Origin: Panopea generosa
Taxonomy: Eukaryota > Mollusca > Bivalvia > Adapedonta > Hiatellidae
Assembly: GCA_029582155.1 (NCBI GenBank)
Contig: CM055895.1
Span: forward strand, 21,679,171-21,743,170
DNA length: 64,000 nt
Direction: 5' to 3'
Shown: positions 12,001-53,728 of the stretch, in pieces
How positions within the stretch are numbered: position 1 is the stretch's first letter
Layout of the letters: the number at the start of each line of letters is the position of its first letter
The notes under the pieces: model-generated
What the model saw: the letters and a program-made list of their open reading frames with translations, nothing else
What the model was told of the DNA's origin: nothing
Databases searched by the model: none
Position numbers and translations under genes: made by a program

Positions 12001-15000
12001 ATCATGGTAAATAAGAAGTCAGTTTGTATTTCAGATATCAAAAGTGAAGCTTTAAGAACCCAAGAAAATACTAAGATTATAAATTAATTGCTAGACATAT
12101 AACATCATGGTAAATAAGAAGTCAGTTTGTATTTCAGATATCAAAAGTGAAGCTTTAAGAACCCAAGAAAACACTAAGATTATATATTAATTGCTAGACA
12201 TATAACATCATGGTAAATAAGACGTCAGTTTGTATTTCAGATATCAAAAGTGAAGCTTTAAGAACCCAAGAAAATACTAAGATTATAAATTAATTGCTAG
12301 ACATATAACATCATGGTAAATAAGAAGTCAGTTTGTATATCAGATATCAAAAGTGAAGCTTTAAGAACCCAAGAAAACACTAAGATTATAAATTAATTGC
12401 TAGACATATAACATCATGGTAAATAAGAAGTCAGTTTGTATTTCAGATATCAAAAGTGAAGCTTTAAGAACCCAAGAAAATACTAAGATTATAAATTAAT
12501 TGCTAGACATATAACATCATGGTAAATAGGAGGTCAGTTTGTATATCAGATATCAAAAGTGAAGCTTTAAGAACCCAAGAAAATACTAAGATTATAAATT
12601 AATTGCTAGACATATAACATCATGGTAAATAAGAAGTCAGTTTGTATATCAGATATCAAAAGTGAAGCTTTAAGAACCCAAGAAAACACTAAGATTATAA
12701 ATTAATTGCTAGACATATAACATCATGGTAAATAAGAAGTCAGTTTGTATATCAGATATCAAAAGTGAAGCTTTAAGAACCCAAGAAAATACTAAGATTA
12801 TAAATTAATTGCTAGACATATAACCTCATGGTAAATAAGAAGTCAGTTTGTATTTCAGATATCAAAAGTGAAGCTTTAAGAACCCAAGAAAACACTAAGA
12901 TTATAAATTAATTGCTAGACATATAACATCATGGTAAATAAGACGTCAGTTTGTATATCAGATATCAAAAGTGAAGCTTTAAGAACCCAAGAAAACACTA
13001 AGATTATAAATTAATTGCTAGACATATAACATCATGGTAAATAAGAAGTCAGTTTGTATATCAGATATCAAAAGTGAAGCTTTAAGAACCCAAGAAAACA
13101 CTAAGATTATAAATTAATTGCTAGACATATAACATCATGGTAAATAAGAAGTCAGTTTGTATATCAGATATCAAAAGTGAAGCTTTAAGAACCCAAGAAA
13201 ACACTAAGATTATAAATTAATTGCTAGACATATAACATCATGGTAAATAAGACGTCAGTTTGTATATCAGATATCAAAAGTGAAGCTTTAAGAACCCAAG
13301 AAAACACTAAGATTATAAATTAATTGCTAGACATATAACATCATGGTAAATAAGAAGTCAGTTTGTATATCAGATATCAAAAGTGAAGCTTTAAGAACCC
13401 AAGAAAACACTAAGATTATAAATTAATTGCTAGACATATAACATCATGGTAAATAGGAGGTCAGTTTGTATATCAGATATCAAAAGTGAAGCTTTAAGAA
13501 CCCAAGAAAACACTAAGATTATAAATTAATTGCTAGACATATAACATCATGGTAAATAAGACGTCAGTTTGTATTTCAGATATCAAAAGTGAAGCTTTAA
13601 GAACCCAAGAAAATACTAAGATTATAAATTAATTGCTAGACATATAACATCATGGTAAATAGGAGGTCAGTTTGTATATCAGATATCAAAAGTGAAGCTT
13701 TAAGAACCCAAGAAAACACTAAGATTATAAATTAATTGCTAGACATATAACATCATGGTAAATAAGAAGTCAGTTTGTATATCAGATATCAAAAGTGAAG
13801 CTTTAAGAACCCATGAAAATACTAAGATTATAAATTAATTGCTAGACATATAACATCATGGTAAATAGGAGGTCAGTTTGTATATCAGATATCAAAAGTG
13901 AAGCTTTAAGAACCCAAGAAAACACTAAGATTATAAATTAATTGCTAGACATATAACATCATGGTAAATAAGACGTCAGTTTGTATATCAGATATCAAAA
14001 GTGAAGCTTTAAGAACCCAAGAAAACACTAAGATTATAAATTAATTGCTAGACATATAACATCATGGTAAATAAGAAGTCAGTTTGTATTTCAGATATCA
14101 AAAGTGAAGCTTTAAGAACCCAAGAAAACACTAAGATTATAAATTAATTGCTAGACATATAACATCATGGTAAATAAGAAGTCAGTTTGTATATCAGATA
14201 TCAAAAGTGAAGCTTTAAGAACCCAAGAAAACACTAAGATTATAAATTAATTGCTAGACATATAACATCATGGTAAATAAGAAGTCAGTTTGTATATCAG
14301 ATATCAAAAGTGAAGCTTTAAGAACCCAAGAAAACACTAAGATTATAAATTAATTGCTAGACATATAACATCATGGTAAATAAGAAGTCAGTTTGTATTT
14401 CAGATATCAAAAGTGAAGCTTTAAGAACCCAAGAAAACACTAAGATTATAAATTAATTGCTAGACATATAACATCATGGTAAATAAGAAGTCAGTTTGTA
14501 TTTCAGATATCAAAAGTGAAGCTTTAAGAACCCATGAAAACACTAAGATTATAAATTAATTGCTAGACATATAACATCATGGTAAATAAGACGTCAGTTT
14601 GTATATCAGATATCAAAAGTGAAGCTTTAAGAACCCAAGAAAACACTAAGATTATAAATTAATTGCTAGACATATAACATCATGGTAAATAAGACGTCAG
14701 TTTGTATATCAGATATCAAAAGTGAAGCTTTAAGAACCCAAGAAAACACTAAGATTATAAATTAATTGCTAGACATATAACCTCATGGTAAATAGGAGGT
14801 CAGTTTGTATATCAGATATCAAAAGTGAAGCTTTAAGAACCCAAGAAAATACTAAGATTATAAATTAATTGCTAGACATATAACCTCATGGTAAATAGGA
14901 GGTCAGTTTGTATATCAGATATCAAAAGTGAAGCTTTAAGAACCCAAGAAAACACTAAGATTATAAATTAATTGCTAGACATATAACATCATGGTAAATA

Positions 15001-17245
15001 AGACGTCAGTTTGTATATCAGATATCAAAAGTGAAGCTTTAAGAACCCAAGAAAACACTAAGATTATAAATTAATTGCTAGACATATAACATCATGGTAA
15101 ATAGGAGGTCAGTTTGTATATCAGATATCAAAAGTGAAGCTTTAAGAACCCAAGAAAACACTAAGATTATAAATTAATTGCTAGACATATAACATCATGG
15201 TAAATAAGACGTCAGTTTGTATTTCAGATATCAAAAGTGAAGCTTTAAGAACCCAAGAAAACACTAAGATTATAAATTAATTGCTAGACATATAACATCA
15301 TGGTAAATAAGAAGTCAGTTTGTATTTCAGATATCAAAAGTGAAGCTTTAAGAACCCAAGAAAATACTAAGATTATAAATTAATTGCTAGACATATAACA
15401 TCATGGTAAATAGGAGGTCAGTTTGTATATCAGATATCAAAAGTGAAGCTTTAAGAACCCAAGAAAACACTAAGATTATAAATTAATTGCTAGACATATA
15501 ACCTCATGGTAAATAAGAAGTCAGTTTGTATATCAGATATCAAAAGTGAAGCTTTAAGAACCCAAGAAAACACTAAGATTATAAATTAATTGCTAGACAT
15601 ATAACCTCATGGTAAATAAGACGTCAGTTTGTATTTCAGATATCAAAAGTGAAGCTTTAAGAACCCAAGAAAACACTAAGATTATAAATTAATTGCTAGA
15701 CATATAACCTCATGGTAAATAAGAAGTCAGTTTGTATATCAGATATCAAAAGTGAAGCTTTAAGAACCCAAGAAAACACTAAGATTATAAATTAATTGCT
15801 AGACATATAACCTCATGGTAAATAAGACGTCAGTTTGTATTTCAGATATCAAAAGTGAAGCTTTAAGAACCCAAGAAAATACTAAGATTATAAATTAATT
15901 GCTAGACATATAACCTCATGGTAAATAGGAGGTCAGTTTGTATATCAGATATCAAAAGTGAAGCTTTAAGAACCCAAGAAAACACTAAGATTATAAATTA
16001 ATTGCTAGACATATAACATCATGGTAAATAAGAAGTCAGTTTGTATTTCAGATATCAAAAGTGAAGCTTTAAGAACCCAAGAAAACACTAAGATTATAAA
16101 TTAATTGCTAGACATATAACATCATGGTAAATAGGAGGTCAGTTTGTATTTCAGATATCAAAAGTGAAGCTTTAAGAACCCAAGAAAACACTAAGATTAT
16201 AAATTAATTGCTAGACATATAACCTCATGGTAAATAAGACGTCAGTTTGTATATCAGATATCAAAAGTGAAGCTTTAAGAACCCAAGAAAACACTAAGAT
16301 TATAAATTAATTGCTAGACATATAACCTCATGGTAAATAAGACGTCAGTTTGTATATCAGATATCAAAAGTGAAGCTTTAAGAACCCAAGAAAACACTAA
16401 GATTATAAATTAATTGCTAGACATATAACATCATGGTAAATAGGACGTCAGTTTGTATATCAGATATCAAAAGTGAAGCTTTAAGAACCCAAGATAATAC
16501 TAAGATTATAAATTAATTGCAAGACATATAACCTCATGGTAAATAAGAAGTCAGTTTGTATTTCAGATATCAAAAGTGAAGCTTTAAGAACCCAAGAAAA
16601 CACTAAGATTATAAATTAATTGCTAGACATATAACCTCATGGTAAATAAGACGTCAGTTTGTATATCAGATATCAAAAGTGAAGCTTTAAGAACCCAAGA
16701 AAACACTAAGATTATAAATTAATTGCTAGACATATAACATCATGGTAAATAAGAAGTCAGTTTGTATTTCAGATATCAAAAGTGAAGCTTTAAGAACCCA
16801 AGAAAATACTAAGATTATAAATTAATTGCTAGACATATAACCTCATGGTAAATAAGACGTCAGTTTGTATTTCAGATATCAAAAGTGAAGCTTTAAGAAC
16901 CCAAGAAAATACTAAGATTATAAATTAATTGCTAGACATATAACCTCATGGTAAATAGGAGGTCAGTTTGTATATCAGATATCAAAAGTGAAGCTTTAAG
17001 AACCCAAGAAAACACTAAGATTATAAATTAATTGCTAGACATATAACCTCATGGTAAATAAGACGTCAGTTTGTATATCAGATATCAAAAGTGAAGCTTT
17101 AAGAACCCAAGAAAATACTAAGATTATAAATTAATTGCTAGACATATAACCTCATGGTAAATAAGACGTCAGTTTGTATATCAGATATCAAAAGTGAAGC
17201 TTTAAGAACCCAAGAAAACACTAAGATTATAAATTAATTGCTAGA
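1..17245. repeat. 103-bp satellite array, about 167 units
   Basis: This is a head-to-tail array of a 103-bp AT-rich unit. Unit starts (tttaagaacc) fall at 1, 104, 207 and so on to 17201. Every spacing is 103 bp except one 102-bp unit near 11331-11432, where a single base is lost. Units differ at only a few sites: cct/cat before catgg; aagacg, aagaag or aggagg after aaat; atatc/atttc; and aaacac/aaatac. The array runs off the left edge of the window. No open frame or hidden exon was seen. Because WDR90 coding sequence stops mid-protein at 17539, the array most likely lies within the intron after exon 18. That placement is an inference. Confidence 0.98.
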
Positions 17246-17392: not shown

Positions 17393-17538
17393 TAGAAGTA
17401 AAAAATTGATATTACTTATAAACTCCTATTTGTACCACTGAAAATGTTTAATTCCTTTCAATTTTAAATAACATGAAATAAATTTGTATTTCTTTGGGGT
17501 CCTTATAGACTTTTTTTAATCAATTATAACATGTATAC

Positions 17539-20800: not shown

Positions 20801-23800
20801 TTAAAATCCATCCATGTATGATAAAGTTAAAGGACAGACTTGAAATCTTAAACAGTTTCAAAGTGTTGTCATACATACTCAAAGTGTGACCGTGTCTAGG
20901 TTTTACTTAGGACACGTCGTCATGTCATCTTGATAAATTGAGCCAAGTTTAAGACAAAATCAGACCAGATACGCAATATCAAACATATTGAAAGTGTGAC
21001 CTTGACCTTTGAGGAAAGGTTCTGGTTCTTACATGCGACACTTAATTATGTCATGTTTATCAACTAAGCCAAGTGTTTTTAAAATATATCCATAGATGAT
21101 AAAGTTATAGATCGGACAAGAAATCTCACACAGACTGAAAGTGTTGTCAAACAAACTCAAAGTGTGACCTTGACCTTTGAGGTACGCATGTGGGTCTTAT
21201 ATGTGACACTTTGTAATGTCATGCTGATGATTTGAGCCAAGTGTTTTTGAAATTTATCCTTAGGTGACAAAGTTTCAGAACGGACACGAAATCTCAATCA
21301 GACTAAAAGTGTCATCAACCTAAGTTAAATTGTGACCTTGTCCTTTGAAGTGGGATTCTGGGTGTAATGTGCAACACATTGTCATGTTATGTTGGTCATT
21401 TTTAGCTAGTATTAACAAATCCATCTATGCATGACAAAGTTACAGGCCAGACACGAAATCTCAAACAGACTGAAAGAGTTGTCAAACAAACTCAAAGTGT
21501 GACCTTGACCTTTGAGGTATGGGTATGGGTCTTACTCGCGACACATTGTCATGTTATGTTGATCATTTGTAGCAAGTATTTAAAAAACCCATCTATACGT
21601 GACAAAGTCACAGACCGGACACGAAATCTCACAAAAACTCAGTGTTGTCAAACAAACTCAAACTGTGACCTTGACCTTTGAGGTACCGGTGTGGGTCTTA
21701 CTCGCGACACGTCGTCATGTTATGTTGATCATTTGTAGCAAGTATCAACAAAATCCATCTAAGCATGACAAAGTTACAGGCGGGAAATGAAATCTCACAC
21801 AAACTCAAATGTTGTCAAACAAACTCAAATTGTGACCTTGACCGTTGAGGTATGGGTGTGGGTCTTACCCGCGACATGTCATCATGTTATGTTGATCATT
21901 TGTAGCAAGTATCAACAAAATCCATCTATGCATGACAAAGTAACAGGCCGGAAACGAAATCTCACACAAACTCAAAGTGTTGTGAAACAAACTCATATTG
22001 TGACCTTGACCTTTGAGGTACGGGTGTGTGTCTTACTCGCAACACGCCGTCATGTTATGTTGATCATTTGTAGCAAGTATAAAAAAAATCCATCTATGCA
22101 TGACAAAGTTACAGGCCGGAAACGAAATCTCACACAAACTCAGTGTTGTCAAACGAACTCAAATTGTGACCTTGACCTTTGAGGTATGGGTGTGGGTCTT
22201 ACTCGCGACACGTCGTCATGTTATGTTGATCATTTGTAGCAAGTATCAATAAAATCCATCTATGCCTGACAAAGTTACAGGTGACACGAAATCTCACACA
22301 AACTCAAAGTGTTGTCAAACAGACTCAAATTGTGACTTTGACCTTTGAGGTATGGGAATGTGGGTCATACTCACGAAATGCCGTTATACTATGTTGATCA
22401 TTTGTAGCAAGTATCAACAAAATCCATCTATGCATGACAAAGTTACAGGCCAGACACGAAATACTGGACGGAAGGACGGACAAACGGAAGGACGGACGCT
22501 GCGATTACTATATGCCACCGAAAAATTTTTTGGTGGGGGCATAAAAAAAGAAACGCAAATAAATTAGCTTGAAAATATTTTGAATGGTTAGAAAAGTAAT
22601 CGGTTACAACAAACTTTTCATTTTGGTCTCAACAAAATAAAATACAATTCTATTACCTGATCAGAATACCATGAGAATATGCTCATGTCCATTTCATGTC
22701 GTTGAATATCCTCAAGTTTCAATTTGCTTTATACAATAGCTATGTAGTAAATATGCAAAAAAGAGAAAAACACCTCAAAGAATAATTATAATCTAATCTG
22801 AATGCTGTGAGAATATGTACATATTCACTCCAATTTGATTAGTCCCAAGTCTTAATTTCAACAGAAGTGTAGAAGAATGACAAGATAATATGTAACAGAC
22901 ACATGAATAAACTGAGACACAGACCATGAATATGTCCCTCTGCATTCTTTAATGGAAATTAGAGACACACCAATAATGTATTTAATTTTTGTTCAGTATT
23001 GTGGTAACAATCTTATTTTAGTGTACATACTGTATCCGTGCCAGCGAGGATTTTGAGCCCATCTGAGGAGAAGTCAACAGCAGTGACTGGTCCTTCATGT
23101 TCAGCCTCGAGGTAAACATGGGCGAAGTCGAGTGGCCATAGTCGCAGATACCCATCATCAGAGCCCGTCACACAGAACGTTTCATTTATACACATGCTGT
23201 TGATGGCAATGCCTGGTCCTAAAATATTGGGAAAACTGATGATATGCACTTTAATGGGTTTGTATTTTTCTTCCTGCTTATAATGCAGTTTTATGCCCTT
23301 TATTGATTGTTATTTTCTATAGAATAAATTTTACATTAAGACTTAGTGTATATTCTAAACTAACTTTTAAAATGATCGTCAATGTACAATTTGAATAGGT
23401 GTTTAGTATCTTGCCAACACATTACAATTTCAATGGTGTGAGAGGACCTCAGAATAAATTAATCCATCTGAGTAGAACTTCCACAAGTAACCATCAAACA
23501 TTCTCACCACTCACAAACTCTGAATGGTAAGTGATCTTGAGACGGCCTTTTAGACCACTCGGCTTTGAAGAAGGGCCTTTCATCATGTTTTATATGGTCT
23601 GTAATTACCTGATTTGAATGTCTGTTTATCTCTGTCAGAGCGTGACTCATTTGGAAGCAGTCTTCTAACATGATGTATGGACACTTTCTTTATATCTATC
23701 TCAAATATGTGTCCTGACCTACTGCAAGCATAGCTGTAATTGGAAAATAGCATATTGTAAACAAACATCACATACATAGATGTAAATGGTTAATAGCATA

Positions 23801-26800
23801 CTGTAAACAAACATCACATACATAGATGTAAATGGTTAATAGCAAACTGTAAACAAACATCACATACATAGATATAAATGGTTAATAGCATACTGTAAAC
23901 AAACATCACATTCATAGATGTAAATGGTTAATAGCAAACTGTAAACAAACATCACATACATAGATGTAAATGGTTAATAGCATTATGTAAACAAACATCA
24001 CATACATAGATGTAAATGGTTAATAGCATACTGTAAACAAACATCACATACATAGATGTAAATAGTTAAAAGCATTATGTAAACAAACATCACATACATA
24101 GATGTAAATAGTTAATAGCATTATGTAAACAAACATTACATACGTATATGTAAATAGTTAATAGCATTATGTAAGCAAACATTACGTACATAGATGTAAA
24201 TAGTTAATAGCATTATGTAAACAAACATTACATAGTATTACAAAGATGTAAATGGTTAATAGCATACTGTAAACAAACATCAAATCACATGTTTATCTGC
24301 AGTGTGATCCACTTAATCCTATTATAAAAATATCAAACTACATCATTTAATTTATAATTAGACTCGTACAATACAGGTGACACATTAATATTGAATCTAC
24401 TGTATTGTATAATGTATGTAACAGATGAATGTTATGTAACAGATGAATGTGCTGTCATCCCTAATACCGTAGGTTCCATCTAAAAATAGAATGATTAGTT
24501 TCAAAATAGCGTATTGGGTTTATAGTATATGATCTCTAAAACAAATATATCAAATATTTATAAACAAATTGTATACAAAAATAATGGTTCATCAACATTT
24601 GTATTGTTTTATGGGATATAATTCCTAAGAGTAGCAGTTCATATATCTAATAGAAATTAGATAAGTGAAATTTCCAAGGCATTTATATATGTCCATAAAA
24701 TTTGTGGACACTATTAAAAAATTTGTTTTAAATATAACATTCTTCAATATTTACAAAAATCACTCAACTCATTAGGGAGATGATTAGCACACCTGTAATG
24801 TACACATGAATTACATTGATTCAAAAGGTGTAAATTTGCCAACATTTTACAGTTAGAATGCATGTGAGGTCATATTCTGAAAATGTCAATGTCAACTGTA
24901 ACATTTTCAAGCTGTTTTCATAAACATGTGATTTTGACATCACAGGAGAGAAGTCATTATCAAATTATGTGTTTTGATTCGAAAACTAAATGCGGAAACT
25001 GTTAAAATTATCAAGTTTGCAATTGAAAAACTGAAAGTGTATTGTTCTTTGGTTTACAAATAGCAGCAACGGATTTCTGATAGAAAAAAACTCCACAGAA
25101 GACCAAACCAAATTGAAGGAGACAAACATGCCAGTGTTTTTTTTCACCATTTTGGGAAGATGACCCATACCCTTGGAATTGGGAATTTTAGCGGCATTTT
25201 CATTAACATTGGGAAATTTTTTTACATTAAATATATTTATATATTTATAAAAAGTGTACACTTGCTTATCAGGCCATTTAATTAAATAATCAATGTCATA
25301 CTGAATTCAGAATTGGGAAAACTTTCTTTATTTTATCAAGGAAGTATGGCAAGTTTCAATTTTAAATTACATTTTTGAAGCTTTCAATTGGGAATTTTTA
25401 CCATTCAATTGGGAAAAAAAGATACTATTTGCCATTGGGAATATGACCCAATAACGGCTATAAAAATGGCCGAAAAAAAACACTGCATGCTGATAGCAAT
25501 TTATTCACAACACAGGTACAATAGTCAGAAGGGTTGGATGCTCAATTGCATTAATCAGTTTTTGCAACATGAACCAGAAATTCTTACAATAAACGGACAG
25601 TACTTTGAGAAACTTTGAACTTTCACCTAGCGGCTAGGCCTCTATGACCGTGTAAGCCCAGCACCAAAAAACACTGAAGGAGCGTCCGAGTGATAATGAA
25701 TATCGAAATGATGTGAGCACCTGTTCCACACATAGTACTTTGTATGTGGTGACATGAGCTCATCATAGCTTAAATTTGGTGTTCCACTTTAATATTCTTA
25801 ATTGTATAAAATTTATATACATGGCTGTGTAAATTATAGTTTATAAATGTTATATTTTTAGTTCTTGCTTTAAAGTTGTCCACAAATTTTTGGGGACACA
25901 CCTCAAATTCCACAATGTTGATTTATCTATACATTCATTTTAAAGGGAAATTAATTCCACTGGAAATTATCCCTTTAATTTCCCCTAGAAGCCTCTATAA
26001 ATCACAGGCAAAAAATATTCATGCCACCCTGACCCTTTTTATTTTCAAATTATCAATATTTTTAAAAATAAAGTCCTCCCCTCCCCCTTTTTAAATAAAA
26101 TTTGGATGGAAATCTAACAATTAATTTATAATGGCCTTAATTTTCTATTTTCTCCCCTTATAGGTTTACTTATAAACTATAAGTGGTGCTGCCAAACAAA
26201 TGTGAACCAAGAAAGGAAACATATATCAACGATGAAGTTTCAGGAAAGGTTATCAAGCAGTAACCAGATCAGACAAAATTATAAAATTGACAACAATTTA
26301 ATATTAATTGTGGAAATCGTGCATACACGAGTCTCTCAGCTGGATCTTTGGTTGTATGATATCCTGCCTCAAATCCCACATCTGTAAACTCCATAGTGTG
26401 GTACTCGCCTAGATTCACTGGGGCTGACCTTAGGGAACCCTCCTTTACACGCCATAGTCTCACATTGTCACGCCCACATGATACCATCCTGTAACACATT
26501 AAACAAGATTGTCAGGACATGTAGACAATTTTCGAAATAAATGCAGTTGAAAACTGCATTGAAAATATTTTTTAAAATTATCAAGTACATATTTCATGTT
26601 GTGTGAAATAAACATTGTGAAGAAATAACCACTTCTTACTTGAATAACACTTTACCTCAAAAAAGAATTTTATTATTTTCTTTTACGAATGAGTTTAACA
26701 GAAGATTCCAGAATAAATCTGAGTTGAACCACTGTCCTACTGCAAATAACCAGAAAAACTTTCTAAAATTAAAAAAAAGATCGTGTAAAATTCATTCAAG

Positions 26801-29800
26801 AATTGTAAAGCATGTGAGATATAAACACAGAGAACAAGAGATGAACAGTTACCACTACTTTTTGTGAGTTTTCAAAAATGTGAGATGTTGCTTTACTATT
26901 GGTGGAGAAAGACCCCATGAAGATGAATCTGATTAAAGAATGACCTCCACAGTGAGAGGTAAGTAATCTTGGAAAGACGCTCCAGACTACTCTGCCACAG
27001 AGGACATCACCTACCAAATAAATAAAAAGATATAAAAATAATAATCCAGGCATTGTTAACTCACCGTGTATCATCAAATGCAGATACCCTCATTCTGGCG
27101 ATGTCAACATCAGTATGTGCCTTGGCCATCACTATCACTTCTCGAGACTTGCTCACTTTACTTGTGTTCCATATAACCACCAGCTGGAAAACATGAACAA
27201 GACACACTTATTAATCTACTCAAATACAGTGTATACATGTACATGTATGCTTAGTATATACTTTAATAAAGTGATGTCCCATGACAGCAATGTTGGTCTA
27301 TTTCTGCTCTGTCAGAGAAATACTAATAAACGATATCAGAATAACAGGCTATTCTTTGCATGTAAAAAATTAAGATGGTTTTCCATATTTGACCCTGATC
27401 CAAGTGATCTTGTTGAGATTGAAAAAATGTTACTTCTTGCATACTGGACAACTATATGGTGTTTGTTAACTTTAATTATTCAAATTTCAATGCTAAACTA
27501 GAAAATAACTGATAACTTACATTTTTTCCATGAGTGTCCTTTCCCACTCCACAAAGAAGGTCACCTTTTTGAGAAAAACTGAAAATTAAAGAAAAAGATA
27601 ATAGCTTGTTATTCACTTCATTAATATCATTTTACCCTATCTGTATAATTCTATCTATTTTAACCTTAGTGGTTCAGGGTAAGAATAGAATGAATGCCAT
27701 GTTCATTTTATAATTCATTGTCATGTTCTTTATTGTGGTTAAATTACCAGTCCCTGTGTGGTTCAAGGGAGCCATTTGAATGATGGCAAGAATATTATCA
27801 CTGTGGCTCATGCATGTCCTAAGAAGCGACAATTTGAGTAATATGACAGAATTTGATGAAACTCTGCAGTCCTGCAGGTAACAAGGTTCTAGGTTCATTA
27901 TGCATATTCATTTGTTGATGTGATTTTTTAAATTTGTATGTTAATTTGTTGTTTTTGAACATGTAGAGTGAACTGAGAATCTTCCTTCCTGTTAGTGTCA
28001 AGTAACCTACAATTTGTTGGTAAGCTGTAAAACCTCATTCATTCATTCATTCTACATGTATCTATTTATTTTTTTGGGCAGATATGGATTCCCAATATAT
28101 GATATAAAGAAAAAACATGTGACCACTATTCCTACCTGAGACTTGATAAGGAGTGTGCATGTGTTTTACAGAGGGCCAAACATTCCCCACTCAACATGCG
28201 CCAGATCCTGACCACACTGAGTTGTCCCGTCTGTCCACTGGCCAGTAACTCGGAATTCCCAGTCATACTGATACACGAAACCTGCAAACAGATGTTATAT
28301 GCACTAAGTGTCAGCCTTGACTCATATAGCATCACTGACCTTGACACCTGAATTTGTTGTATGATAGTTACTCTGGCTGGTACAGACAATGTTCCAGTCT
28401 GCTGGAGTTCCCCATTACAAAGAGACAACATACCTGCAATTGATGAAATTAATGTCCTACTGTATAAATCTATTAAGTATCAGCCACGACCTCATAATTA
28501 CCTAAATGACCTTGAAAATGAATTCACTGCATGATACTTACTTTAGTGGCTGATTAAACTGCAGTTAATTGATATAAATCAGTTTCTTCCAAATATTAAA
28601 ATAGGTATGATAACAGCAGAAAAAAAACTTCAATTGGAAAGGAAGACTTATTTGAAAAACTGCCACATTGTGACATATCAACCATGTCGCCATGACAACA
28701 ATACTTGAATGTAATTGTGAGAATAGATTATAAAAAGATTACATGTAGGGAGAAACATAACTGTACCTATCTCTGTATGTCCTATGAAGAAACATTACTG
28801 TACATTATCTGTATGTCCTATGAAGTAACATAACTGTACCTTATCTGCATGTCCTATGAAGAAACATAGCTGTACCTTATCTGCATGTCCTATGAAGAAA
28901 CATAGCTGTACCTTATCTGTATGTCCTATGTAGAAACATAACTGTACCTTATCTGCATGTCCTATGAAGAAACATAGCTGTACCTTATCTGTATGTCCTA
29001 TGTAGAAACATAGCTGTACCTTATCTGTATGTCCTATGAAGAAACATAACTGTACCATATCTGTATGTCCTATGTAGAAACATAACTGTACCTTATCTGC
29101 ATGTCCTATGAAGAAACATAGCTGTATCTTATCTGTATGTCCTATGTAGAAACATAGCTGTACCTTATCTGTATGTCCTATGAAGAAACATAACTGTACC
29201 TTATTTGTATGTCCTATGAAGAAACATAACTGTACTGTACCTTACCTGTATGTCCTATGTAGAAATATAGCTGTACCTTATCTGTATGTCCTATGAAGAA
29301 ACATAACTGTACCTTATCTGTATGTCCTATGAAGAAACATAACTATACCTTATCTGTATGTCCTATGAAAAATCTCTGATGACCATTAGAAATTTTCATG
29401 GCTACAATGACAGCATGGCAGGGGTATACCAAACATAAACCATCCTCTGACCACAGGGCCTGAAATGTCACATGTTCTATTATAACATAAATCTGATCAT
29501 GAGAGTGTATTTTTTTATAATTTCCAAAGAAGGGATTAAATTGATAAAAATTCAGGCAGATATTTATGGCAAAATAATGGTTCAGCAGGATTTTCCATGA
29601 CCCTCAGTTTTTGCCTTGTAAAAATATTAAATAAAATGACCAATGCAACTTATAAACGTCTCATCACACTGCAGACAAATGACCCACAAAGTGTGAGGGA
29701 AAACACTGGGTTCAGTATCCGGATCACTGGTACATGTATGTGCATATTACACATATAATTATGCCACTCAGGCACTTTTTAAAACAATATTCTGGTACAT

Positions 29801-32800: not shown

Positions 32801-35800
32801 TGTGGATATCTGACATCATAACAGATGACCTTCAGAACTGGTCAAACCAGGTTTTTTCAATATGTGTAAAAATTTGATAGATTCACATTTTATTGAAAAT
32901 GACTTGTGCGGAAAATAAATTGGGTTGTCCAAACAGAACATATCAAAATAGTAATGCTGAAATTTGTTTGTACCTGTTATTGCCAAGTACATGTAAGTCT
33001 AAACACATTAATGTTTCATAACATAAGCTTGCTTAATTAAAAAAGACTATTGTGTTTCACCTTAAGTAGTATAACTTTAATCATACTATGACTATTTTTT
33101 GTGACCTTTTTGGTCTAAAGTATCGGCTCAAGACTGCTTACAAATACTTTCACGGCTGAGGTTGTGAGTTCAAGTCCCAGTCTGATAAAAAAGAAAGAAA
33201 ATGTGCCAGTCACTTGCTAAAGAACAGTGTTTATACTTAGATATGTTCTGAAGACAGCCTCCACCAATAAAATTGTTTTTAGAATTTATATTCGTAGCAT
33301 TTTCCTCTCCTGCTGGACAAGCCTAACAGATGATTAAAAGAGACACCACAAAAAGAGAAGGCAAACACTGACCTGGTTCATATAAAATATCGCTGGTAAA
33401 GATATTTTTAACAAGCATGTTGGCACAAAGGCGGACACCTTTGATGTACGAGTATTTACGGTTGAGATACATGGAGAGAATATATTGAAAATCCAGGCAC
33501 AGTATTGTCCATCGTGTTGAGAGAGGAGCTGGACCATGGTTCTCTGCAATACATTAGTAAAAAGAAACATCAGATGAACTCACATGACTAAGAAAAGGAT
33601 GGTGTGGCAAATGAAATGTAAGTACAATCTAACAGATTCAAACATTGTTAGGTAACTTTTGATTGTTATGACAATCAGACAACATTCATTTACACAACCT
33701 TCATTCTGGTAAGAAAAAAATCTTTATCAGTTAATAAATTCCCAATGAATGTTAAAGCTTTAAAGTGCACTGAATGAGAAATACGAACAAAATCAGCATA
33801 TAGTTTACCAACTGTGTGGTTGGTGGGATAAACAAACAAAAACTTTGCCTGAAAGTAGAAGTCAGTTTTGAGTCAACAACACTATACATGTACATGTATA
33901 TACATATGGACAATTATTTATTTATACTGCTATTTTGCATTTGTTAAAACAATTTGTTTTCAGCATTTATTACCATCCAGAGCAAAATTGTGGTGTAACA
34001 GTGACTTTACTTCAAACCCAATCCCAAACTGCTTTTCCTGTATGGAAACTATTGACATTCACAATTTTTCATCAGAATGTCTTAAAGGAAACTTATGTTA
34101 TTGAGCATAACCTTTGGAGGCAGACAAACGATGCGACTGACAGTGGTACCGCTATATGATCTCTTTTCATTCTTTGATAACAAGGGCAAAATGTTATTTC
34201 AAATGTTATAAAAATACTTTGGACTTACCTTACAACATTAATAGGCCAAGATGTGAAACATATTTTTAATATTCTGTATTTTGCACAATTTTCCTCATTC
34301 CTTGCACTTTATTTTATCATCCTATTTCAATCTTGTATTAATTTTTGTTTAATTTTTTGTATATTATCTTTCATTTAAATATTTTCCCTGCATTTTTATT
34401 TATCATAAGGACTGCAGCGTGGTCTAGTGGTAGAGCGTCCGCCTCGCATGCGGAAGGTCGTGGGTTCGATCCCCAGCCGGGTCATACCAAAGACTTCAAA
34501 AATGGTACCAGAAGCTTCCTCGCTTGAAGCTCAGCATTTAGAGGAGAGTTCTAGGTCTAGTTGGCCCGGTGTCAGTATAATTTGACTGGGTGGGGTATCA
34601 TACCATGTGTCTGCGGCATGATACTCCAGTGTGACAGCGCTCAGAATACTGTCTCAAGTAGACACCGTTGCGATAAGACTGAAAAATTGTTGAAAGTGAT
34701 GCTAAACACCATACAACAACAACATTTATCATAAAAACAGTAACAAAAGATTCAACTGGTTTCAATATTTTTTTATAACTACCTTTGCCAGTAAGAGCTG
34801 TTACTGCGTGTACTGATCCACGCGTGGCCTTGCACACAAATGGAAACTGTAACCATGTGGATGTGGACTTGAATTCCTTGAACAGGTTTGAAAATGATAT
34901 CCTGACCACCAGGTTGTCCTGTGTGGCGACATCAATGTGTACGACAAAGTATTTGGTAGGGATGGGTTTAATGAGGAGATACATGTATCTGCCTGTAAGG
35001 CCGAGGGACTGAGAACTGGTTTTCGGCAGCTGTATGTAATTCCCTGCTGGAATGGAACCAGTGACCCTGTACACAGTAGATTTGATGGTTTTGTCCTGAA
35101 ACATTAAACACATTTACTTCTAGCCTTTTATACAACCACTTTTGTAGACATGAAATTAATCACTTCAAAACAAAATATTTAAATTATTGAATAGACTTCT
35201 TATTTTTCTGTAACTAAACTGTATATCACTTTAAAGGTACAAGTACAAGAAATGGAATATTGTTCTTAAATATCAATGATCTTCATATTTTTTACGCATA
35301 TATCAATTTTGGATTTAAACATTTAAATGGAATCAAAAGTTCTTACCATGACAGTGGTGACCTCCCCTTCCTTTGTCGACTTCTTCCATGATGAAATGTT
35401 GAAATGTTTAAAAACATTAACATTAGGATGTTGCCACACTGCAAACAAATAATAATAATAATATATAATCTATCTTTTAATAGAAATTCTCACTGAAATC
35501 AACAATATGAGTGACTCTACAAAACAAAAAAGACCTTGGGTTCCACAAAGATGACAAGCTTACCTTCCACAAACATATAAGTGAACAAAGACAACTCAAT
35601 ATTCGCAATGTTACGTAGGTCATTCCAAAACAAGGATTCAAAATTCATTATACATGTACCTTTATACAAAGCCGTGGTCAGAACACAGTTAGATTATGCT
35701 AGCTCAGTATGGGCGCCATTCAAAATAAAACATTGATCTCCGTCAAAGAAAACGTTCAACGGAGAGCAACAAAACAATTACTAGGTAAAAAGGATTTATC

Positions 35801-38124
35801 CTACCCAGAGAGACTAAAATTGCTAAAGTTGTCAATCTTGAGATTTAGACGACTGAGAGGAGATATGATCGAGGCATATAAAATGTTACATGGCATATAC
35901 GATCTTGAAGAATGGAGCTTTTTAAAGCTTTTAAAGGACATGGCAACAAGATCGAGTACCAGGGGTAACTCTATAAAATTATACCTGTAATGAACAAACA
36001 TATCATTAAGATATTGATTGATTTGATTGAATTTTTAGCGTCATTTTTATGCCATCTAGGGCTAACAGACGATCAGTTAACCTAACCACTGTTTCCTGGA
36101 ATCCTGGAAGGTTAACCAGTACTCAAACACTCACGACCCCTGGATTTAAAGTCAGACGAGCAAAGGACTAAGCTAATCACACCCGGCATCATTAAAATAA
36201 AACTCTGTTACAACAAGAACCCCAACCAGAGTATGAGTGGATAATCAATTTGCGCATATTTTATGATAATGCAGTGTCCAAGGACTGTTTAAAAGTACTG
36301 TGCAATATTTAACTATCAACTTAACAGTACATGTAATTATCACCTAATAGTTAACAAATTGGTGTTTTCCTCCTTTTTTTAATTAAAGAAATAAGTCAGA
36401 AGATGATAAATTCGGCCTCAAAAAAATATCGTAATAAATGCGATCATTGTCCATTAAATGTTTAGGTTGCAGGTTCTATACATATATAAAATGGTACAAC
36501 CTTGCATGAAATGAACAGTAAATATACTAAAAAAGAATTTTATCCACCCTTTCACCCTGTCACTGTAATATATATATGTACATTATGATTAACATCAAAC
36601 ACATGCAATGAAAAATTACTGAAATAAATGTGCATTTTTTAGCAACTCAACTCTACATTGATTTTCTGGCACGACAGACACCACAATTTGTAATAATATA
36701 AATTATTCAACTATAAATGATATTATTACAAGACATCACACCACTTCCTTGTGGCCAGGTTAAGATACAAAGTTGGATACAGGATTTCCACCTGGCTTAC
36801 AAAATATTTACTGCCAGTGTTAAGTGTTACTCTTAAATCTTCTGCCATTACTTAAGGAACATGGCCTACTAGTAAACCAGTAACACATTGTAACTTTAGT
36901 TACCGTTTTGCATCTGTTACTAGCTGAACTTTACTTTTGACTCAACAGGCACTTGTGGTCTCACTTTGAATGCATGATAGCATTTGACTACACTATTCTT
37001 CACATAGACTGTTTACGTAGCGTAAGTTGAGGTTCCATCATTTGTGAATAAAATTTTTTTTCACTTTCATTAAACATCTCAAGTGTCTTGTTCAACTGTT
37101 ACATAGTATTACTGTACATACTAGAGTAGACATAATTTACATGTGCTCATAGTTAGCAAGATGTCCATCAGAGACTGAATGATTCTATTGACGTCAAACA
37201 AAGACTAATCTTTGTCCTCATGAATATACAGATATACTGACATATATAGTCAAATAAAACATGAAAGCACTGTCTTTAGAAAACAAATTATTGGCAGGTG
37301 ACAGGCTATGGACGATAAGACAAATTATCACTTCATATGACATTGGTCAAAAGTGCCAAAATATTATAATAAGCTCCTTCTTCCAGCTTAATTGATATGT
37401 CACTGTAATGTCTTGAATATTTGGTTATGATAATATGGAGAAACAGATACATTAGTGTATCTTAATACCGTGAGTCACACGCATTCAAGTGAACATGTGT
37501 TGTGACAGCAGTGAATCAGTTATTTTAAGAAATCAACATAGCAATACATAAGAATCATGCTGATTACTAAGGCTAAATTATTTAGAATTACGCATAGGTC
37601 TAGTGTGTTTCCTGGCAGTTGACAAGTAAATTGTAATGCAAATCAAGTGTACATACTCTAATTTATGAAAAGAAGACTATCCAAAAGACGTGTCTTAATT
37701 TCTTACAATGTCATATAAATGTAATGTGATGTACTTGCAAAGCTTGTAACATAACTAATTATGTATTATGTTGATGTGGCCTTGATGATAGCTGTCAAAA
37801 CAACAGATATCTGTGCATTGTTAAGACACTGTACATATCAAAATTATACGGTTTGTTTATCGACTCATGAGTACATGTTGATCAGCTTTGTTTTACTGCA
37901 ATAACTTCTTATGAATGTTATATCAAACGCTACTATTTTATATACCATGCCGACGATAAATAAAAGTTATTTAATTTAATGTATTTACTTGATTTGACAT
38001 ACCCCACCCACAATAGTTCAAACCGAAACGAAACAAGTTTCAGCACGACTGTAAATACATCAACATAATTATTGACAAAGTACAAATCAATCGACTCCAA
38101 TAAATATTACTTACATTGTGCCAT
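17539..38124 (-). CDS. WDR90: WDR90 / POC16, 5' half (exons 1-18, 883 codons, partial)
   Basis: WDR90/POC16 is known as a centriole protein that binds the microtubule wall through an N-terminal CFAP20-like (DUF667) domain and supports the inner scaffold; the rest is WD40 propellers. Joined exons (minus strand, from the 5' end): 38115-38124, 35347-35438, 34783-35095, 33373-33543, 32373-32564, 30720-30982, 30395-30457, 29811-29879, 29349-29459, 28136-28281, 27521-27578, 27065-27183, 26327-26488, 23609-23733, 23031-23218, 19795-19959, 18437-18576, 17539-17800. All junctions are GT-AG and phase-compatible with no stop, giving 883 residues. Residues about 4-200 are the CFAP20-like domain, about 260-370 a low-conservation linker, and about 370-883 WD40 repeats. 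The order matches vertebrate WDR90 throughout, from memory of that family. The vertebrate protein is roughly 1,750 residues, so about half is missing, to the left of the window. The start follows from the MAQ-LWQHP N terminus, which resembles the vertebrate start. Confidence 0.95.
17801..18436. other. WDR90 intron 17
   Basis: AT-rich intron. The only structure seen is a short tandem duplication of about 27 bp at about 18002-18057 (cacaaatcactatatttaaa repeated). Nothing else was recognised. Confidence 0.7.
18437..18576 (-). CDS. WDR90: WDR90 exon 17 (WD40)
   Basis: This exon encodes residues 750-795: LYDFSAPNECPCTISYHPSR, then FACGFESGIVRVFNV. It matches the LYDF and CGF.SG motifs of vertebrate WDR90. 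The donor is GTAAAA. Confidence 0.95.
18725..19210 (+). mobile_element. Core-repeat non-autonomous element, short copy (H1a)
   Basis: The copy starts with acaagaaatgtcactgttaa and the block cacatgccccccaaatgg. It holds about one 167-bp core unit (tgaccttgacctttgaggta) and ends in a gacggacggac stretch, then tatgccactc and an A-rich tail. The same two ends frame the 2.1-kb copy at 20461-22548. This layout resembles Helentron/pearl-type non-autonomous elements of bivalves, where the tandem core varies in number. It lies in WDR90 intron 16, antisense to the gene. Confidence 0.7.
19463..19672. mobile_element. MITE-like element, copy C
   Basis: Terminal inverted repeats are ataaattagttgctagatta at the left and gatgataatctagcaatcaa plus tttataatggcctt at the right. 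The interior is the reverse orientation of copy A (ccgccccctaatttttcatg). No coding capacity. It lies in WDR90 intron 16. Confidence 0.75.
19795..19959 (-). CDS. WDR90: WDR90 exon 16 (WD40)
   Basis: This exon encodes residues 695-749: GNLGMLDITSRGYTTMMRSH, then TGSIRSVAVDPYRKHIATVS and a canonical DDHTIRVWD end. It is phase 0 on both sides. The 3.1-kb intron before it contains the long core-repeat element. Confidence 0.96.
20053..20160. repeat. Two-copy tandem duplication, about 59 bp
   Basis: The segment caaaggattgctaca followed by tacatgta occurs twice about 59 bp apart, with a few substitutions, just upstream of WDR90 exon 16. Confidence 0.7.
20461..22548 (+). mobile_element. Core-repeat non-autonomous element, long copy (H1b)
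   Basis: The 5' end (acaagaaatgtcactgttaa) and the 3' end (gacggacgctgcgattacta, then a tatgccacc/ggtgggggcata hairpin) match copy 18725-19210. Between them lie about ten tandem core units with a period near 167 bp. Each unit holds tgacaaagttacaggcc, cacgaaatctcacacaaact, tgaccttgacctttgaggta and catgttatgttgatcatttg. Units on the left are diverged; those right of about 21400 are nearly uniform. Short open frames across it are by-products. It lies in the intron before exon 16. Confidence 0.8.
22549..23030. other. WDR90 intron 15, right part
   Basis: AT-rich intron sequence. I see no gene, RNA or repeat structure in it. Confidence 0.6.
23031..23218 (-). CDS. WDR90: WDR90 exon 15 (WD40)
   Basis: This exon encodes residues about 632-694: GPGIAINSMCINETFCVTGS, then DDGYLRLWPLDF and LEAEHEGPVTAVDFSSDG. 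The GPGIAI and RLWPLDF motifs are strongly conserved in WDR90. The donor is GTATGT. Confidence 0.96.
23405..23582 (-). mobile_element. tRNA-derived SINE relic (family L), copy 1
   Basis: Read on the minus strand, it opens with gccgagtggtctaaaaggcc, an A-box-like tRNA-Leu/Ser style head, then tctcaagatcacttaccatt and a short body. The same head pattern recurs at 26880-27010, 32625-32760 and 33107-33295. The B box is degraded. Confidence 0.5.
23609..23733 (-). CDS. WDR90: WDR90 exon 14
   Basis: This exon encodes residues about 590-631: YACSRSGHIFEIDIKKVSIH, then RRLLPNES and DKQTFKS. It matches the CSRSGHILEID and RRLLP motifs of vertebrate WDR90. A 46-bp minisatellite begins at its acceptor. 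Confidence 0.95.
23734..24295. repeat. 46-bp minisatellite abutting WDR90 exon 14
   Basis: About 12 tandem units of 46 bp (catacatagatgtaaatggt, then taatagcatactgtaaacaa acatca). The unit nearest the exon (catag/ctgtaattggaaaatagc) aligns with the others and contains the functional 3' splice site of exon 14. In the other units the AG is replaced (tacatc on the minus strand). Units become more diverged toward 24240. Confidence 0.85.
24296..25985. other. WDR90 intron 13, left part
   Basis: AT-rich intron DNA. Two short hairpins were noticed (for example ccacaaatttttgggg near 25880). No gene or named repeat was recognised. Confidence 0.55.
25990..26139. mobile_element. MITE-like element, copy B (left end decayed)
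   Basis: The interior ttcatgccaccctgaccctt and the right end ggatggaaatctaacaatta plus atttataatggcctta match copies C and D. The left terminal repeat is not recognisable. WDR90 intron 13. Confidence 0.6.
26327..26488 (-). CDS. WDR90: WDR90 exon 13 (WD40)
   Basis: This exon encodes residues about 536-589: MVSCGRDNVRLWRVKEGSLR, then APVNLGEYHTMEFTDVGFE. The donor is taken as GTATGC after GACTCGT, because only this site joins in frame to the YACSRSGHI of exon 14. Confidence 0.93.
26489..26879. other. WDR90 intron 12, left part
   Basis: AT-rich intron sequence. Nothing else was recognised. Confidence 0.55.
26880..27010 (-). mobile_element. tRNA-derived SINE relic (family L), copy 2
   Basis: The minus strand has gcagagtagtctggagcgtc, then caagattacttacctctcac, and ends with a ctttctccaccaatagtaaa block that is also present in the copy at 33107-33295 (cctccaccaataaaattg). 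Both promoter boxes are degraded. Confidence 0.5.
27065..27183 (-). CDS. WDR90: WDR90 exon 12 (WD40)
   Basis: This exon encodes residues about 497-535: LVVIWNTSKVSKSREVIVMA, then KAHTDVDIARMRVSAFDD. The AKAHTDxD motif is diagnostic for this blade of WDR90. The donor is GTGAGT. Confidence 0.94.
27184..27520. other. WDR90 intron 11
   Basis: Intron sequence. An incidental open frame on the plus strand has no recognisable similarity. Nothing else was seen. Confidence 0.55.
27521..27578 (-). CDS. WDR90: WDR90 exon 11 (WD40, 58 bp)
   Basis: This exon encodes SFSQKGDLLCGVGKDTHGKN, matching the LLCGVGKDHHGR motif of vertebrate WDR90. The phase 2 entry and phase 0 exit agree with the neighbouring exons. 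Confidence 0.94.
27655..28062 (-). mobile_element. Interspersed element family R, copy 1
   Basis: On the minus strand this begins with gaatgaatgaatgaggtttt and acagcttaccaacaaattgt, then aacaggaaggaag. It ends with aaaatgaacatggcattcat and tctattcttaccctgaa. It matches the complete copy at 42260-42693 along its whole length with moderate divergence. It fills most of WDR90 intron 10. Confidence 0.75.
28136..28281 (-). CDS. WDR90: WDR90 exon 10 (WD40)
   Basis: This exon encodes residues 429-476: VSCISMTGNSELLASGQ, then SVVRIWRMLSGECLALCKTH, a canonical WD40 blade. The acceptor is tttgcAG and the donor GTAGGA. The exon leaves in phase 2. Confidence 0.94.
28282..28759. other. WDR90 intron 9, left part with old duplication
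   Basis: Two diverged copies of a segment about 170 bp apart (near 28305 and 28475) share taagtRtcagccWYgac, then tgaccttgaMa and tgatagttact-like ends. No other feature was recognised. Confidence 0.45.
28760..29348 (-). repeat. 36-bp minisatellite made of copies of the exon 9 donor junction
   Basis: About 16 tandem units of 36 bp follow exon 9 in intron 9. On the minus strand each reads ttcataggacatacagataa|g gtacagttatgtttc, with t/c variants (HTD versus HAD if read as protein). The first half equals the last 7 codons of exon 9 (FIGHTDK) and the second half the first intron bases, so each unit carries a potential GT donor in the same phase. The first intron unit has GTATAG, giving an in-frame TAG. 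Most later units have GTACAG and stay open for about 87 codons (28795-29058). One unit near 29236 has about 5 extra bases. Confidence 0.93.
29349..29459 (-). CDS. WDR90: WDR90 exon 9 (first WD40 blade, ends in GHTDK)
   Basis: This exon encodes residues 392-428: ALWSEDG, then LVYPCHAVIV, then RFFIGHTDK. The sequence is nearly the same as the vertebrate protein at these motifs. The exon end plus the first intron bases are repeated about 16 more times downstream (28760-29348). The native donor is GTATAG, a weak site. Confidence 0.95.
29460..29810. other. WDR90 intron 8
   Basis: Intron DNA with no recognised structure. Confidence 0.55.
29811..29879 (-). CDS. WDR90: WDR90 exon 8
   Basis: A 69-bp exon encodes LEPDPILQLKRIVGFGG, matching the PDPVLRLKGVIGFGG motif that opens the WD40 region of vertebrate WDR90. 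It is phase 0 on both sides, with donor GTGAGT. Confidence 0.93.
30268..30340 (+). mobile_element. Interspersed element family R, 5' fragment
   Basis: The sequence gaatgaatgagattttcatg then gcttaccaacacaaaacagt matches the first 60-70 bases of the complete R copy at 42260. The rest is absent. WDR90 intron 7. Confidence 0.5.
30395..30457 (-). CDS. WDR90: WDR90 exon 7 (small linker exon)
   Basis: A 63-bp exon encodes SRTAKIEGPAKLLPLNKPSF plus R. It is flanked by a ttttttttcAG acceptor and a GTAAGT donor and is phase 0 on both sides. It rests on splice sites and frame fit, since the linker is poorly conserved. Confidence 0.8.
30720..30982 (-). CDS. WDR90: WDR90 exon 6 (linker)
   Basis: This exon encodes residues about 260-347, a charged low-conservation linker (KESKASRRRP, then DDIDIEQDREGE). 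Two AGs are possible at the acceptor; the more upstream one (exon start 30982) is the only one that keeps the frame from exon 5 open. The donor is GTATTA. Confidence 0.85.
31081..31852 (+). mobile_element. Core-repeat non-autonomous element (H2)
   Basis: The ends are short inverted repeats: tgtcccttgc at the left, gcaggggaca at the right. The right end also forms a ctgctttttgcaaagcag hairpin. Inside are four tandem cores, each with cacaaattaaaggggcataa, of two alternating subtypes: one with actatagaacagcaaatg, one with ctacaacactgaaagtcata. It lies in WDR90 intron 5. It has no coding capacity; its architecture is like that of H1. Confidence 0.65.
31853..32372. other. WDR90 intron 5, right part
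   Basis: Intron DNA. A small inverted repeat (ccaaggtccgaacaccttgg, about 32072-32091) is the only structure noted. Confidence 0.5.
32373..32564 (-). CDS. WDR90: WDR90 exon 5
   Basis: This exon encodes residues about 196-259. The segment PRELNYPVMKGDRWHDLYD corresponds to the conserved post-domain motif of WDR90 (PREM..PVPKGESWHD in vertebrates). A Ser/Thr-rich tail leads into the linker. Confidence 0.93.
32625..32760 (+). mobile_element. tRNA-derived SINE relic (family L), copy 3
   Basis: The head is aagtggtctaagatgtcatc (A-box-like), with a B box ggttcaagtcc at 32680-32690 and a body gtacttggcagttactaaaa similar to the copy at 33107. WDR90 intron 4. Confidence 0.6.
33107..33295 (+). mobile_element. 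tRNA-derived SINE relic (family L), copy 4
   Basis: The head ggtctaaagtatcggctcaa is followed by a B-box-like gagttcaagtccc, a body aatgtgccagtcacttgcta and a 3' block cctccaccaataaaattg. WDR90 intron 4. Confidence 0.6.
33373..33543 (-). CDS. WDR90: WDR90 exon 4 (end of CFAP20-like domain)
   Basis: This exon encodes residues about 139-195, with TRWTILCLDFQYILSMYLNR and VRLCANMLVKNIFTSDILYE, which complete the CFAP20-like fold. The acceptor is attgcAG and the donor GTCAGT, a slightly unusual one. Confidence 0.95.
33544..34408. other. WDR90 intron 3, left part
   Basis: AT-rich intron. Two overlapping short open frames on the plus strand (33868-34159) have no recognisable similarity and no codon bias. 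Nothing else was seen. Confidence 0.5.
34409..34724 (+). mobile_element. tRNA-derived SINE with conserved body (family A), copy 1
   Basis: The head contains an intact A box (gtggtctagtgg, 34419-34430), an anticodon-arm-like tccgcctcgcatgcgga with a CGC (Ala) anticodon, and a perfect B box (ggttcgatccc, 34463-34473). The acceptor arms do not pair (ccgggtc has no partner at the 5' end), so this is a SINE head and not a tRNA gene. The body includes cggtgtcagtataatttgac and tgggtggggtatcataccat, and the tail is acaacaacaac. A second copy lies at 60650-60890. The body could belong to a conserved-domain SINE superfamily such as MetaSINE; I could not verify that. WDR90 intron 3. Confidence 0.85.
34783..35095 (-). 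CDS. WDR90: WDR90 exon 3 (core of CFAP20-like domain)
   Basis: This exon encodes residues 35-138. Hallmarks are YIQLPKTSSQSLGLTGRY, the HIDVATQDN segment and SFSNLFKEFKSTSTWLQFP, all strongly conserved in WDR90 and related to CFAP20. The acceptor is tttcAG and the donor GTAGTT. The exon ends in phase 1. Confidence 0.96.
35347..35438 (-). CDS. WDR90: WDR90 exon 2 (CFAP20-like domain start)
   Basis: This exon encodes residues about 4-34, including WQHPNVNVFKHF and the SSWKKS stretch. The acceptor is tttgcAG and the donor GTAAGA. It leaves phase 0 into the DKTIK of exon 3. Confidence 0.93.
35525..36040 (+). pseudogene. Non-LTR retrotransposon reverse-transcriptase C-terminal fragment
   Basis: Conceptual translation in shifting frames gives KDLGFHKDDKLTFHKHIS, then LYKAVVRTQLDYASSVWAPF, then (35709-35990) ENVQRRATKQLLGKKDLSYP and RRLRGDMIEAYKMLHGIYD. 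This is the typical end of the RT ORF in jockey/CR1-like non-LTR elements. At least two frameshifts, a stop and an internal deletion make it dead. It sits in WDR90 intron 1, antisense to the gene. The 3' end near 36030 (gattgatttgattgaat) may be the retrotransposon tail. Confidence 0.85.
36060..36200 (-). mobile_element. tRNA-derived SINE relic (Lys-like head)
   Basis: The minus strand reads gtgtgattagcttagtcctt, tctgactttaaatccagggg, then tcgtgagtgtttgagtactg. This resembles a tRNA head with a ctttaa anticodon loop and a decayed B box. Low to moderate confidence. Confidence 0.4.
36201..38114. other. WDR90 intron 1, right part
   Basis: About 1.9 kb of AT-rich DNA with no recognised gene, RNA or repeat. 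Confidence 0.55.
38115..38124 (-). CDS. WDR90: WDR90 exon 1 (start codon)
   Basis: Ten coding bases (ATG GCA CAA T) precede a strong GTAAGT donor. They splice in phase 1 to exon 2 to give MAQLWQHP, close to the start of vertebrate WDR90. The exon is far too short for ORF finding and is supported by the fit with exon 2. Confidence 0.85.
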
Positions 38125-39857: not shown

Positions 39858-40425
39858 GAACAGGAAGTTTCAAGTTACTAACTTCTGTCGACTATGACTG
39901 ACCAACCTGTATCACCACATGAACTTCTGTCGACTATGCCTGATCAGACTGTATCACCACAAGAACAGGAAGTTTCAAGTTACCATCTTCTGTCGACTAT
40001 GCCTGACCAGCCTGTATCACCACAAGAACAGGAAGTTTCAAGTTACCAACTTCTGTCGACTATGCCTGACCAGCCTGTATCACCACATGAACAGGAAGTT
40101 TCAAGTTACCAACTTCTGTCGACTATGCCTGACCAGCCTGTATCACCACACGAACAGGAAGTTTTAAGTTACCAACTTCTGTCCACTATGCCTGACCAGC
40201 CTGTATCACCACAAGAACAGGAAGTTTTAAGTTACCAACTTCTGTCGACTATGCCTGACCAGCCTGTATCACCACATGAACAGGAAGTTTCAAGTTACTA
40301 ACTTCTGTTGACTATGCCTGACCAGCCTGTATCACCACATGAACAGGAAGTTTCAAGTTACTAACTTCTGTTGACTATGCCTGACCCACTGTATCACCAC
40401 ATGAACAAGGAATTTCTGAAGAGTT
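39858..40425 (+). repeat. 63-bp minisatellite with a 21-residue reading frame
   Basis: Repeats of gaacaggaagtttcaagtta, c/taacttctgtcgactatgcc and tgaccagcctgtatcaccac begin at 39858, 39963, 40026, 40089, 40152, 40215, 40278, 40341 and 40403. The period is 63 bp (21 codons), except that the first interval contains a shorter unit and the last is 62 bp. The middle units read EQEVSSYQLLSTMPDQPVSP in one open frame (39894-40301). A CAA-to-TAA change stops the frame in the first unit and in two late ones, and a 1-bp loss shifts the last. It looks like a decayed coding repeat or a non-coding array with a chance frame. No gene is recognised around it. Confidence 0.85.
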
Positions 40426-53600: not shown

Positions 53601-53728
53601 TATTTTCCTGGGTCTTGCGAGTTTGAGCCAATAAAGTTTTATTATATATCACTGGGGCAACTATTATCCAGGGTCTTGCGAGTTTGAGCCAATGAAGTTT
53701 TATTATATATCACTGGTGCAACTATTTT
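44693..53728. repeat. 61-bp satellite array, 148 units
   Basis: The unit is gagccaataaagttttattg, tatatcactggtgcaactat, tatccagggtcttgcgagttt. The gcc anchor sits at 44721 in the first unit and 53688 in the last; the difference is exactly 147 x 61 bp, so there is no net length change. Variants involve gta/ata/gtta-tcac, ggtgc/ggggc/ggggt, ttatcc/ttttcc/ttttcg, gcgag/gcaag/acgag, gagcc/gggcc/gaacc and aataaag/aatgaag. Higher-order duplications of 427 bp and 366 bp are visible. Every unit has TTTATT (AATAAA on the minus strand), and most have AATAAA and CCAAT on the plus strand. Confidence 0.98.

Follow-up and report, generated by a model that had tools for sequence, protein, structure and literature searches.

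A minisatellite of exon-intron junction copies at the splice donor of WDR90 exon 9 in Panopea generosa

Introduction

Does a tandem array which repeatedly copies an exon-intron junction, splice donor included, serve the gene in which it lies, or is it an accident of a genome filled with repeats? The question is raised by a 64,000-base stretch of the genome of the bivalve Panopea generosa (contig C2, 21679171-21743170; the whole stretch is referred to below as the window, and the genome amounts to 1.47 Gb in 39 contigs). Here, intron 9 of the gene WDR90 starts with a 36-bp minisatellite made up of copies of the exon 9/intron 9 junction. The array is probably an accident of this kind. We consider it likely that it is a junction-seeded minisatellite without selected function, with splicing occurring mostly at the first donor and with a predicted leak to a much stronger donor, the GT from 29245, within the array. 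Positions are those of the window unless a contig is given, and a slash marks the splice point in a splice site.

WDR90 and its exon 9/intron 9 junction

The gene lies on the minus strand, as do all of its features given here, and is identified as WDR90/POC16 because exons other than exon 9 possess matches to PF23393 (E-value 1.4e-39) and to the CFA20 domain PF05018 (E-value 2.1e-21) in Pfam. Exon 9 (29349-29459) has 37 codons and ends in ...NGHQRFFIGHTDK, its last 21 bases being the exonic copy of the repeat unit. It is followed by intron 9 (28282-29348, 1067 nt), with the donor AAG/GTATAG (GT from 29348) and the acceptor TTTGCAG, and by exon 10 (28136-28281), which begins VSCISMTGNSELLASGQTGQLSVVRIW... 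and whose 3' limit was set by eye. The limits of both exons were drawn by eye from reading frames and splice signals, and the exon number 9 follows the count of a first-pass annotation of this DNA. Searched against PDB chains, exon 9 yielded CFAP52 as its sole match, a weak one (E-value 1.1), in which QRFFIGHTD of the exon is aligned to QRFLTGHTS.

Anatomy of the array

The minisatellite is delimited by Tandem Repeats Finder at 28751-29369 (minus strand; period 36, 17.0 copies, score 1002). Of the 17 occurrences of a fixed anchor, one is exonic and 16 are intronic, and the spacing is 36 in 15 of the 16 steps and 41 in the other. Both results bear out the first-pass claim that intron 9 starts with about 16 tandem 36-bp copies of its own junction. 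A comparison of the units also confirmed their proposed composition, namely the seven last exon codons followed by GT and 13 further intron bases. Exon 9 contributes its final 21 bases, which are the same as in the consensus of all 16 intronic copies, and intron 9 contributes its initial 15; therefore, the founder segment straddled the junction. The 17 units are uninterrupted and contiguous with exon 9, each unit holding exon 3' end and intron 5' start, while the far end of the array passes into different intron sequence. The acceptor (28282) is situated outside the array at a distance of 470 bases.

The copies had been described as all sharing one phase and all keeping the donor GT, and neither description holds throughout. 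Beyond the third intronic copy the frame changes, at the 41-base step; a 5-nt insertion, GTACA (29236-29240, placement ambiguous), is found here and shifts the frame of the subsequent copies. Among the 15 intronic junction copies bearing a GT, 4 are in the phase of the exon and 11 are two bases off. The GT is kept in 15 of the 16 intronic copies, the copy at 29126-29127 reading AT instead on comparison of the units, and in one of the 15, the last copy, it has moved by one base, to 28766. The donor sequence is AAG/GTACAG in 12 of the intronic copies, with the exon-side variants ATG, AAT, and TAG in 3. The array was also considered as a possible RNA hairpin; this was rejected, with a fold not beyond chance (equalled or bettered by each of 20 shuffles, z +4.7).

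Donor strength and reading frame

The donors of the array had further been taken to be near-identical and weak, which fails for the third intronic copy. An A-to-G change has created a strong extra donor here, CAG/GTAAGG (29240-29248, minus strand, GT from 29245), with a matrix score of 11.5 and a U1 duplex of -11.5 kcal/mol compared to 4.6 and -6.8 kcal/mol for the true donor, the matrix being a human one and not one from this animal. The site ranks top of 15 WDR90 sites, namely itself and 14 exon ends set by eye (among which TTC/GTATTT at 33784 is a guess), and it is second best among the 1107 GT sites on the same strand between 17500 and 35100. In the true donor as well as in the GTACAG copies, the base at +4 is left out of the U1 pairing predicted to be best, whereas 29245 is predicted to pair without a bulge. 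The earlier suggestion that the array could act as decoy donors is thus plausible, as one array site outscores the true donor.

Use of the donor at 29245 would extend exon 9 by 103 nt, stop included. On reading from the exon into the intron, the second codon is a TAG (29343-29345, minus strand), and it is the second added codon for all 16 later donors tested (the 15 copies and 29245). The first-pass claim that an in-frame TAG in the first intron unit would truncate isoforms formed from later donors therefore stands.

Proposed origin and fate of the array

The array may have been founded by a single duplication across the exon 9/intron 9 junction and would then have expanded through slippage or unequal exchange. 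It would persist where exon 9 is joined mostly from its own 5'-most donor, because the array is then spliced out with the intron. The later copies are predicted to serve as decoys which are mostly about as weak as the true donor. The far stronger site at 29245 is predicted to divert part of the transcripts of this allele into a product with the 103-nt extension and a stop at the second added codon, which would probably be degraded. In this way, a copy mutated to a much stronger splice site could disturb WDR90.

The abundance of minisatellites in this genome was estimated from ten 4-kb stretches taken at round coordinates on nine contigs, in which arrays with a period of 10-200, at least 3 copies and a score of at least 80 were counted. 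There were 11 arrays covering 11998 of the 40000 bases (~30%), in what is a small sample with 4 of the 11 cut by the ends of the stretches. The window has 9 merged arrays covering 31984 of its 64000 bases. From the sample and the window, a founder unit is estimated to straddle ~0.9-1.3% of positions by chance, a rate at which chance alone would be expected to place some arrays on junctions in a genome of this kind. Chance placement in a minisatellite-rich genome is sufficient as an explanation so far.

Similar arrays elsewhere in WDR90 and in the genome

The sister cases below do not form a census. In WDR90 itself there is a 46-bp array of ~12 copies (23729-24290, minus strand), the last copy of which crosses the acceptor TTACAG/CTATG of a downstream exon starting from 23733. 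In 10 of 10 aligned intronic copies the acceptor AG is replaced by AT, the eleventh being the same by eye, and the nearest AG upstream of this exon is 67 nt from it.

A second case is an immunoglobulin (Ig)-domain gene (locus L036, C1:12283000-12288500, array at ~2510-2800 of the locus; I-set E-value 8.9e-10), with 118 open codons before the first donor. Its exon end, AAAG/GTAAGT, is followed by copies of 33-34 nt which place nine strong donors within 270 nt.

The third is a PLC-delta-like gene which turned up in the flank of another match. It is present in two copies that are ~96% identical, at C9:48805318-48811500 (L003 and L054) and C9:50480000-50488000 (L050), and is identified by a C2 domain (E-value 5e-8) and by PLC-delta-1 chains (E-value 2e-8). 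The unit of ~48 nt (16 codons) repeats the end of the exon itself, with ~11 units per array. The copy at 48.80 Mb has three strong donors (+0, +48, and +96), all of them in frame and without an intervening stop, and use of the +48 or +96 donor would add GEFIGQYTIPFECMQT once or twice, i.e., 16 or 32 residues from a C2-domain exon. The copy at 50.48 Mb has a TAA in its first unit. The intron of the latter also holds a second array of ~33-nt units near the acceptor of the next exon (+1662 from the first donor).

It is conceivable, if on balance doubtful, that junctions are repeatedly drawn into minisatellites in this genome, giving a standing set of competing-donor arrays of which some are able to become protein repeats; a shift of donor would then convert growth of an intron repeat into protein, as might happen at C9:48.80 Mb, and a stop would close the sister copy.

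Four further arrays on contig C1 (L044, L046, L048, and L049, at ~28.98, 41.58, 47.25, and 51.92 Mb) have units of 40 or 51 bp with donor motifs on both strands and are alike by eye. No exon was noticed ahead of them by reading frames, these loci being outside the domain scan.

Points against a purely accidental array

A number of results weigh against chance placement without function. Of the three arrays which the WDR90 stretch contains, two are on junctions, compared to 0.25-0.37 expected for its ~28 junctions, an excess with a Poisson P of ~0.03-0.05 by hand arithmetic, which is post hoc and concerns small numbers. This leaves room for a preference for junctions; as proof of one, it was rejected on account of its post hoc nature and the small numbers. 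Genome-wide counts of the donor pattern are 4547+4874 versus 2006+1131 for the reversed pattern. Unit number and unit order are the same in both PLC-delta-like copies, which suggests an array more stable than one which churns freely. The open frame of exon 9 has no match to any Pfam family, and that of exon 10 matches generic propeller models only, and weakly. The junction excess, the pattern counts and the stability of the PLC-like array leave open a preference for junctions or a role.

With regard to the pattern counts, these only resemble an enrichment because the matches concentrate in few arrays. When distinct donor-bearing arrays are counted by eye among the matches listed, there are ~16 in 52 Mb versus ~18 in 82 Mb of the reversed control, a weak excess. 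On contig C1, covered up to 51.9 Mb, at least 16 distinct arrays can be told apart by eye. A rule that a donor-bearing minisatellite marks an exon junction was rejected, as 1 of the 16 C1 loci among these matches (L036) starts at an exon. The other 15, which lay outside the Pfam scan, have 5 to 57 open codons before their first donor, a range in which weak or short exons may be missed.

Alternative explanations

The array could instead be a working regulator, its decoys, chiefly 29245, diverting a set share of transcripts to stop-carrying forms in order to tune the amount of protein, with array length as the dose. The rank of 29245 at the top of the WDR90 sites and second among all GT sites of the stretch fits this, as does a stop at the second codon for each of the later donors tested. 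There are also 18 TAGG motifs within the array stretch, a motif which we take to be an hnRNP A1 site in RNA. A minisatellite of Caenorhabditis elegans, CeRep25B, is described as over-represented close to regions of alternative splicing (PMC4039745). However, the strong donor amounts to a single changed base in one copy from one allele, the TAGG motif derives from codons of the exon, and no sign of selection was noticed in the array, making a regulator an unlikely explanation. Errors of assembly or sequencing are a different matter, in that the copy number, the 5-nt insertion, the TAG or the change at 29245 could be wrong. Tandem arrays are difficult to assemble, and one assembly was used. Yet the exon-intron anatomy does not depend on copy number, the differences among copies are irregular, and the PLC-like array is found almost unchanged at two places; an artefact accordingly seems quite unlikely.

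Two other possibilities concern direction and outcome. An array born inside the intron and afterwards copied into the exon end would leave much the same picture, and direction is not readable from a single genome; but the exonic copy is in reading frame at GH, which we take to be a WD40-type motif (the CFAP52 match to this segment being the weak one given above), and the PLC-like exon matches C2-domain sequence of PLC, so that an intronic origin is highly improbable. Scarcely credible for WDR90, and the least probable of the four, is growth of repeat domains, in which use of later donors adds residues to the protein in multiples of 12. In its favour are the 36-bp length of the unit, a 148-residue open frame which reads repeats like VQLCFFIGHTDK within the array, and the three strong, in-frame and open donors of the PLC-delta-like copy at C9:48.80 Mb. 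Against it, the WDR90 allele has the TAG at codon 2 and a frame shift after three copies, and the other PLC-like copy has a TAA in its first unit. With its early TAG and its frame shift, this allele thus gives no support to the first-pass proposal that later donors add 12-codon multiples and offer a route to repeat domains. In the PLC-delta-like copy at C9:48.80 Mb, such growth by a shift of donor is conceivable.

Other features of the window

Two very long arrays are found in the window, with a 103-bp unit repeated 167 times at 1-17245 and a 61-bp unit repeated 148 times at 44696-53726. The first of these lies 293 bases beyond the WDR90 donor at 17538. There is also a 63-bp array (21 codons) at 39882-40416, with a plus-strand open frame of 139 residues having repeats like LLSTMPDQPVSPHEQEVSSYQ, which could be coding. 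Judged from the letters, plus-strand open frames at 35581-35990 seem to resemble the final part of a reverse transcriptase from a retroelement.

Implications

Arrays whose donors are nearly identical offer a natural experiment in the choice of one donor among many by the spliceosome, and they bear on how repeat introns could become coding repeats or poison extensions. With several arrays available in one genome, including a duplicated pair of which one member has a stop in its first unit and the other does not, both questions are open to simple RNA-seq. They are also of relevance to annotation, as such arrays could mislead the prediction of exon ends; in WDR90 the top score belongs to a donor which lies 103 bases beyond the probable true one.

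Comparison with known systems

Among the matches listed from the open-licence literature, consisting mostly of titles and abstract openings, no report of this WDR90 array was found. Its kind, as judged from the anatomy of CBS, would already be known, because the CBS repeat, boundary repeats in human genes and introns formed by tandem duplication have been described, and the WDR90 instance would be a further member.

The human CBS gene has a 31-bp variable number tandem repeat (VNTR), named c.1444_1467+7(16_21), with a copy number that varies among people (PMC2630376). Reading from this name, there are 16-21 copies of a unit in which the last 24 exon bases are joined to the first 7 of the intron. 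The WDR90 array, too, is a junction-spanning minisatellite that multiplies a donor. They differ in gene, unit length and lineage, and the WDR90 array is known from one assembly. From the title of a 2001 study by Lievers, the CBS VNTR is reportedly tied to enzyme activity. A second CBS variant, c.844_845ins68, is presented in the same source as a tandem copy of an intron-exon junction, so that two splice sites compete and one of them is strongly preferred (PMC2630376). This insertion seems closer to the acceptor-side 46-bp array of WDR90 than to the donor array.

Human genes of segmental duplications are likewise reported to have repeats of minisatellite size where exon and intron meet, which can alter splicing and form novel introns (PMC2812944). 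Alternative forms are seen there in transcripts, in contrast to the WDR90 array, which is known as genomic sequence and whose intron has its acceptor outside the array. In an earthworm metallothionein gene there are intronic minisatellites, with junction copies not described in the part of that account available (PMC12783039).

Bulge-register 5' splice sites are real donors with a statistical link to alternative donor choice, as summarized in a later paper (Roca 2012 via PMC9311317). The true donor of WDR90 and its GTACAG copies resemble these in the predicted pairing with U1, with the donor base at +4 unpaired; the decoy at 29245, predicted to pair without a bulge, differs.

Finally, the gain of introns by tandem duplication is described for potato RdRp, ATP2A1 and the 24-bp repeats of fission yeast (PMC4974935). 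The likeness lies in the copying in tandem of a segment with AG/GT, with several consecutive copies in fission yeast, and it extends to the PLC-like case, in which the intron starts with copies of coding sequence. For an intron gained in this way, both splice sites would come from copies of the duplicated segment, whereas the acceptor of intron 9 is 470 bases past the array; therefore, the array did not create both splice sites of intron 9.
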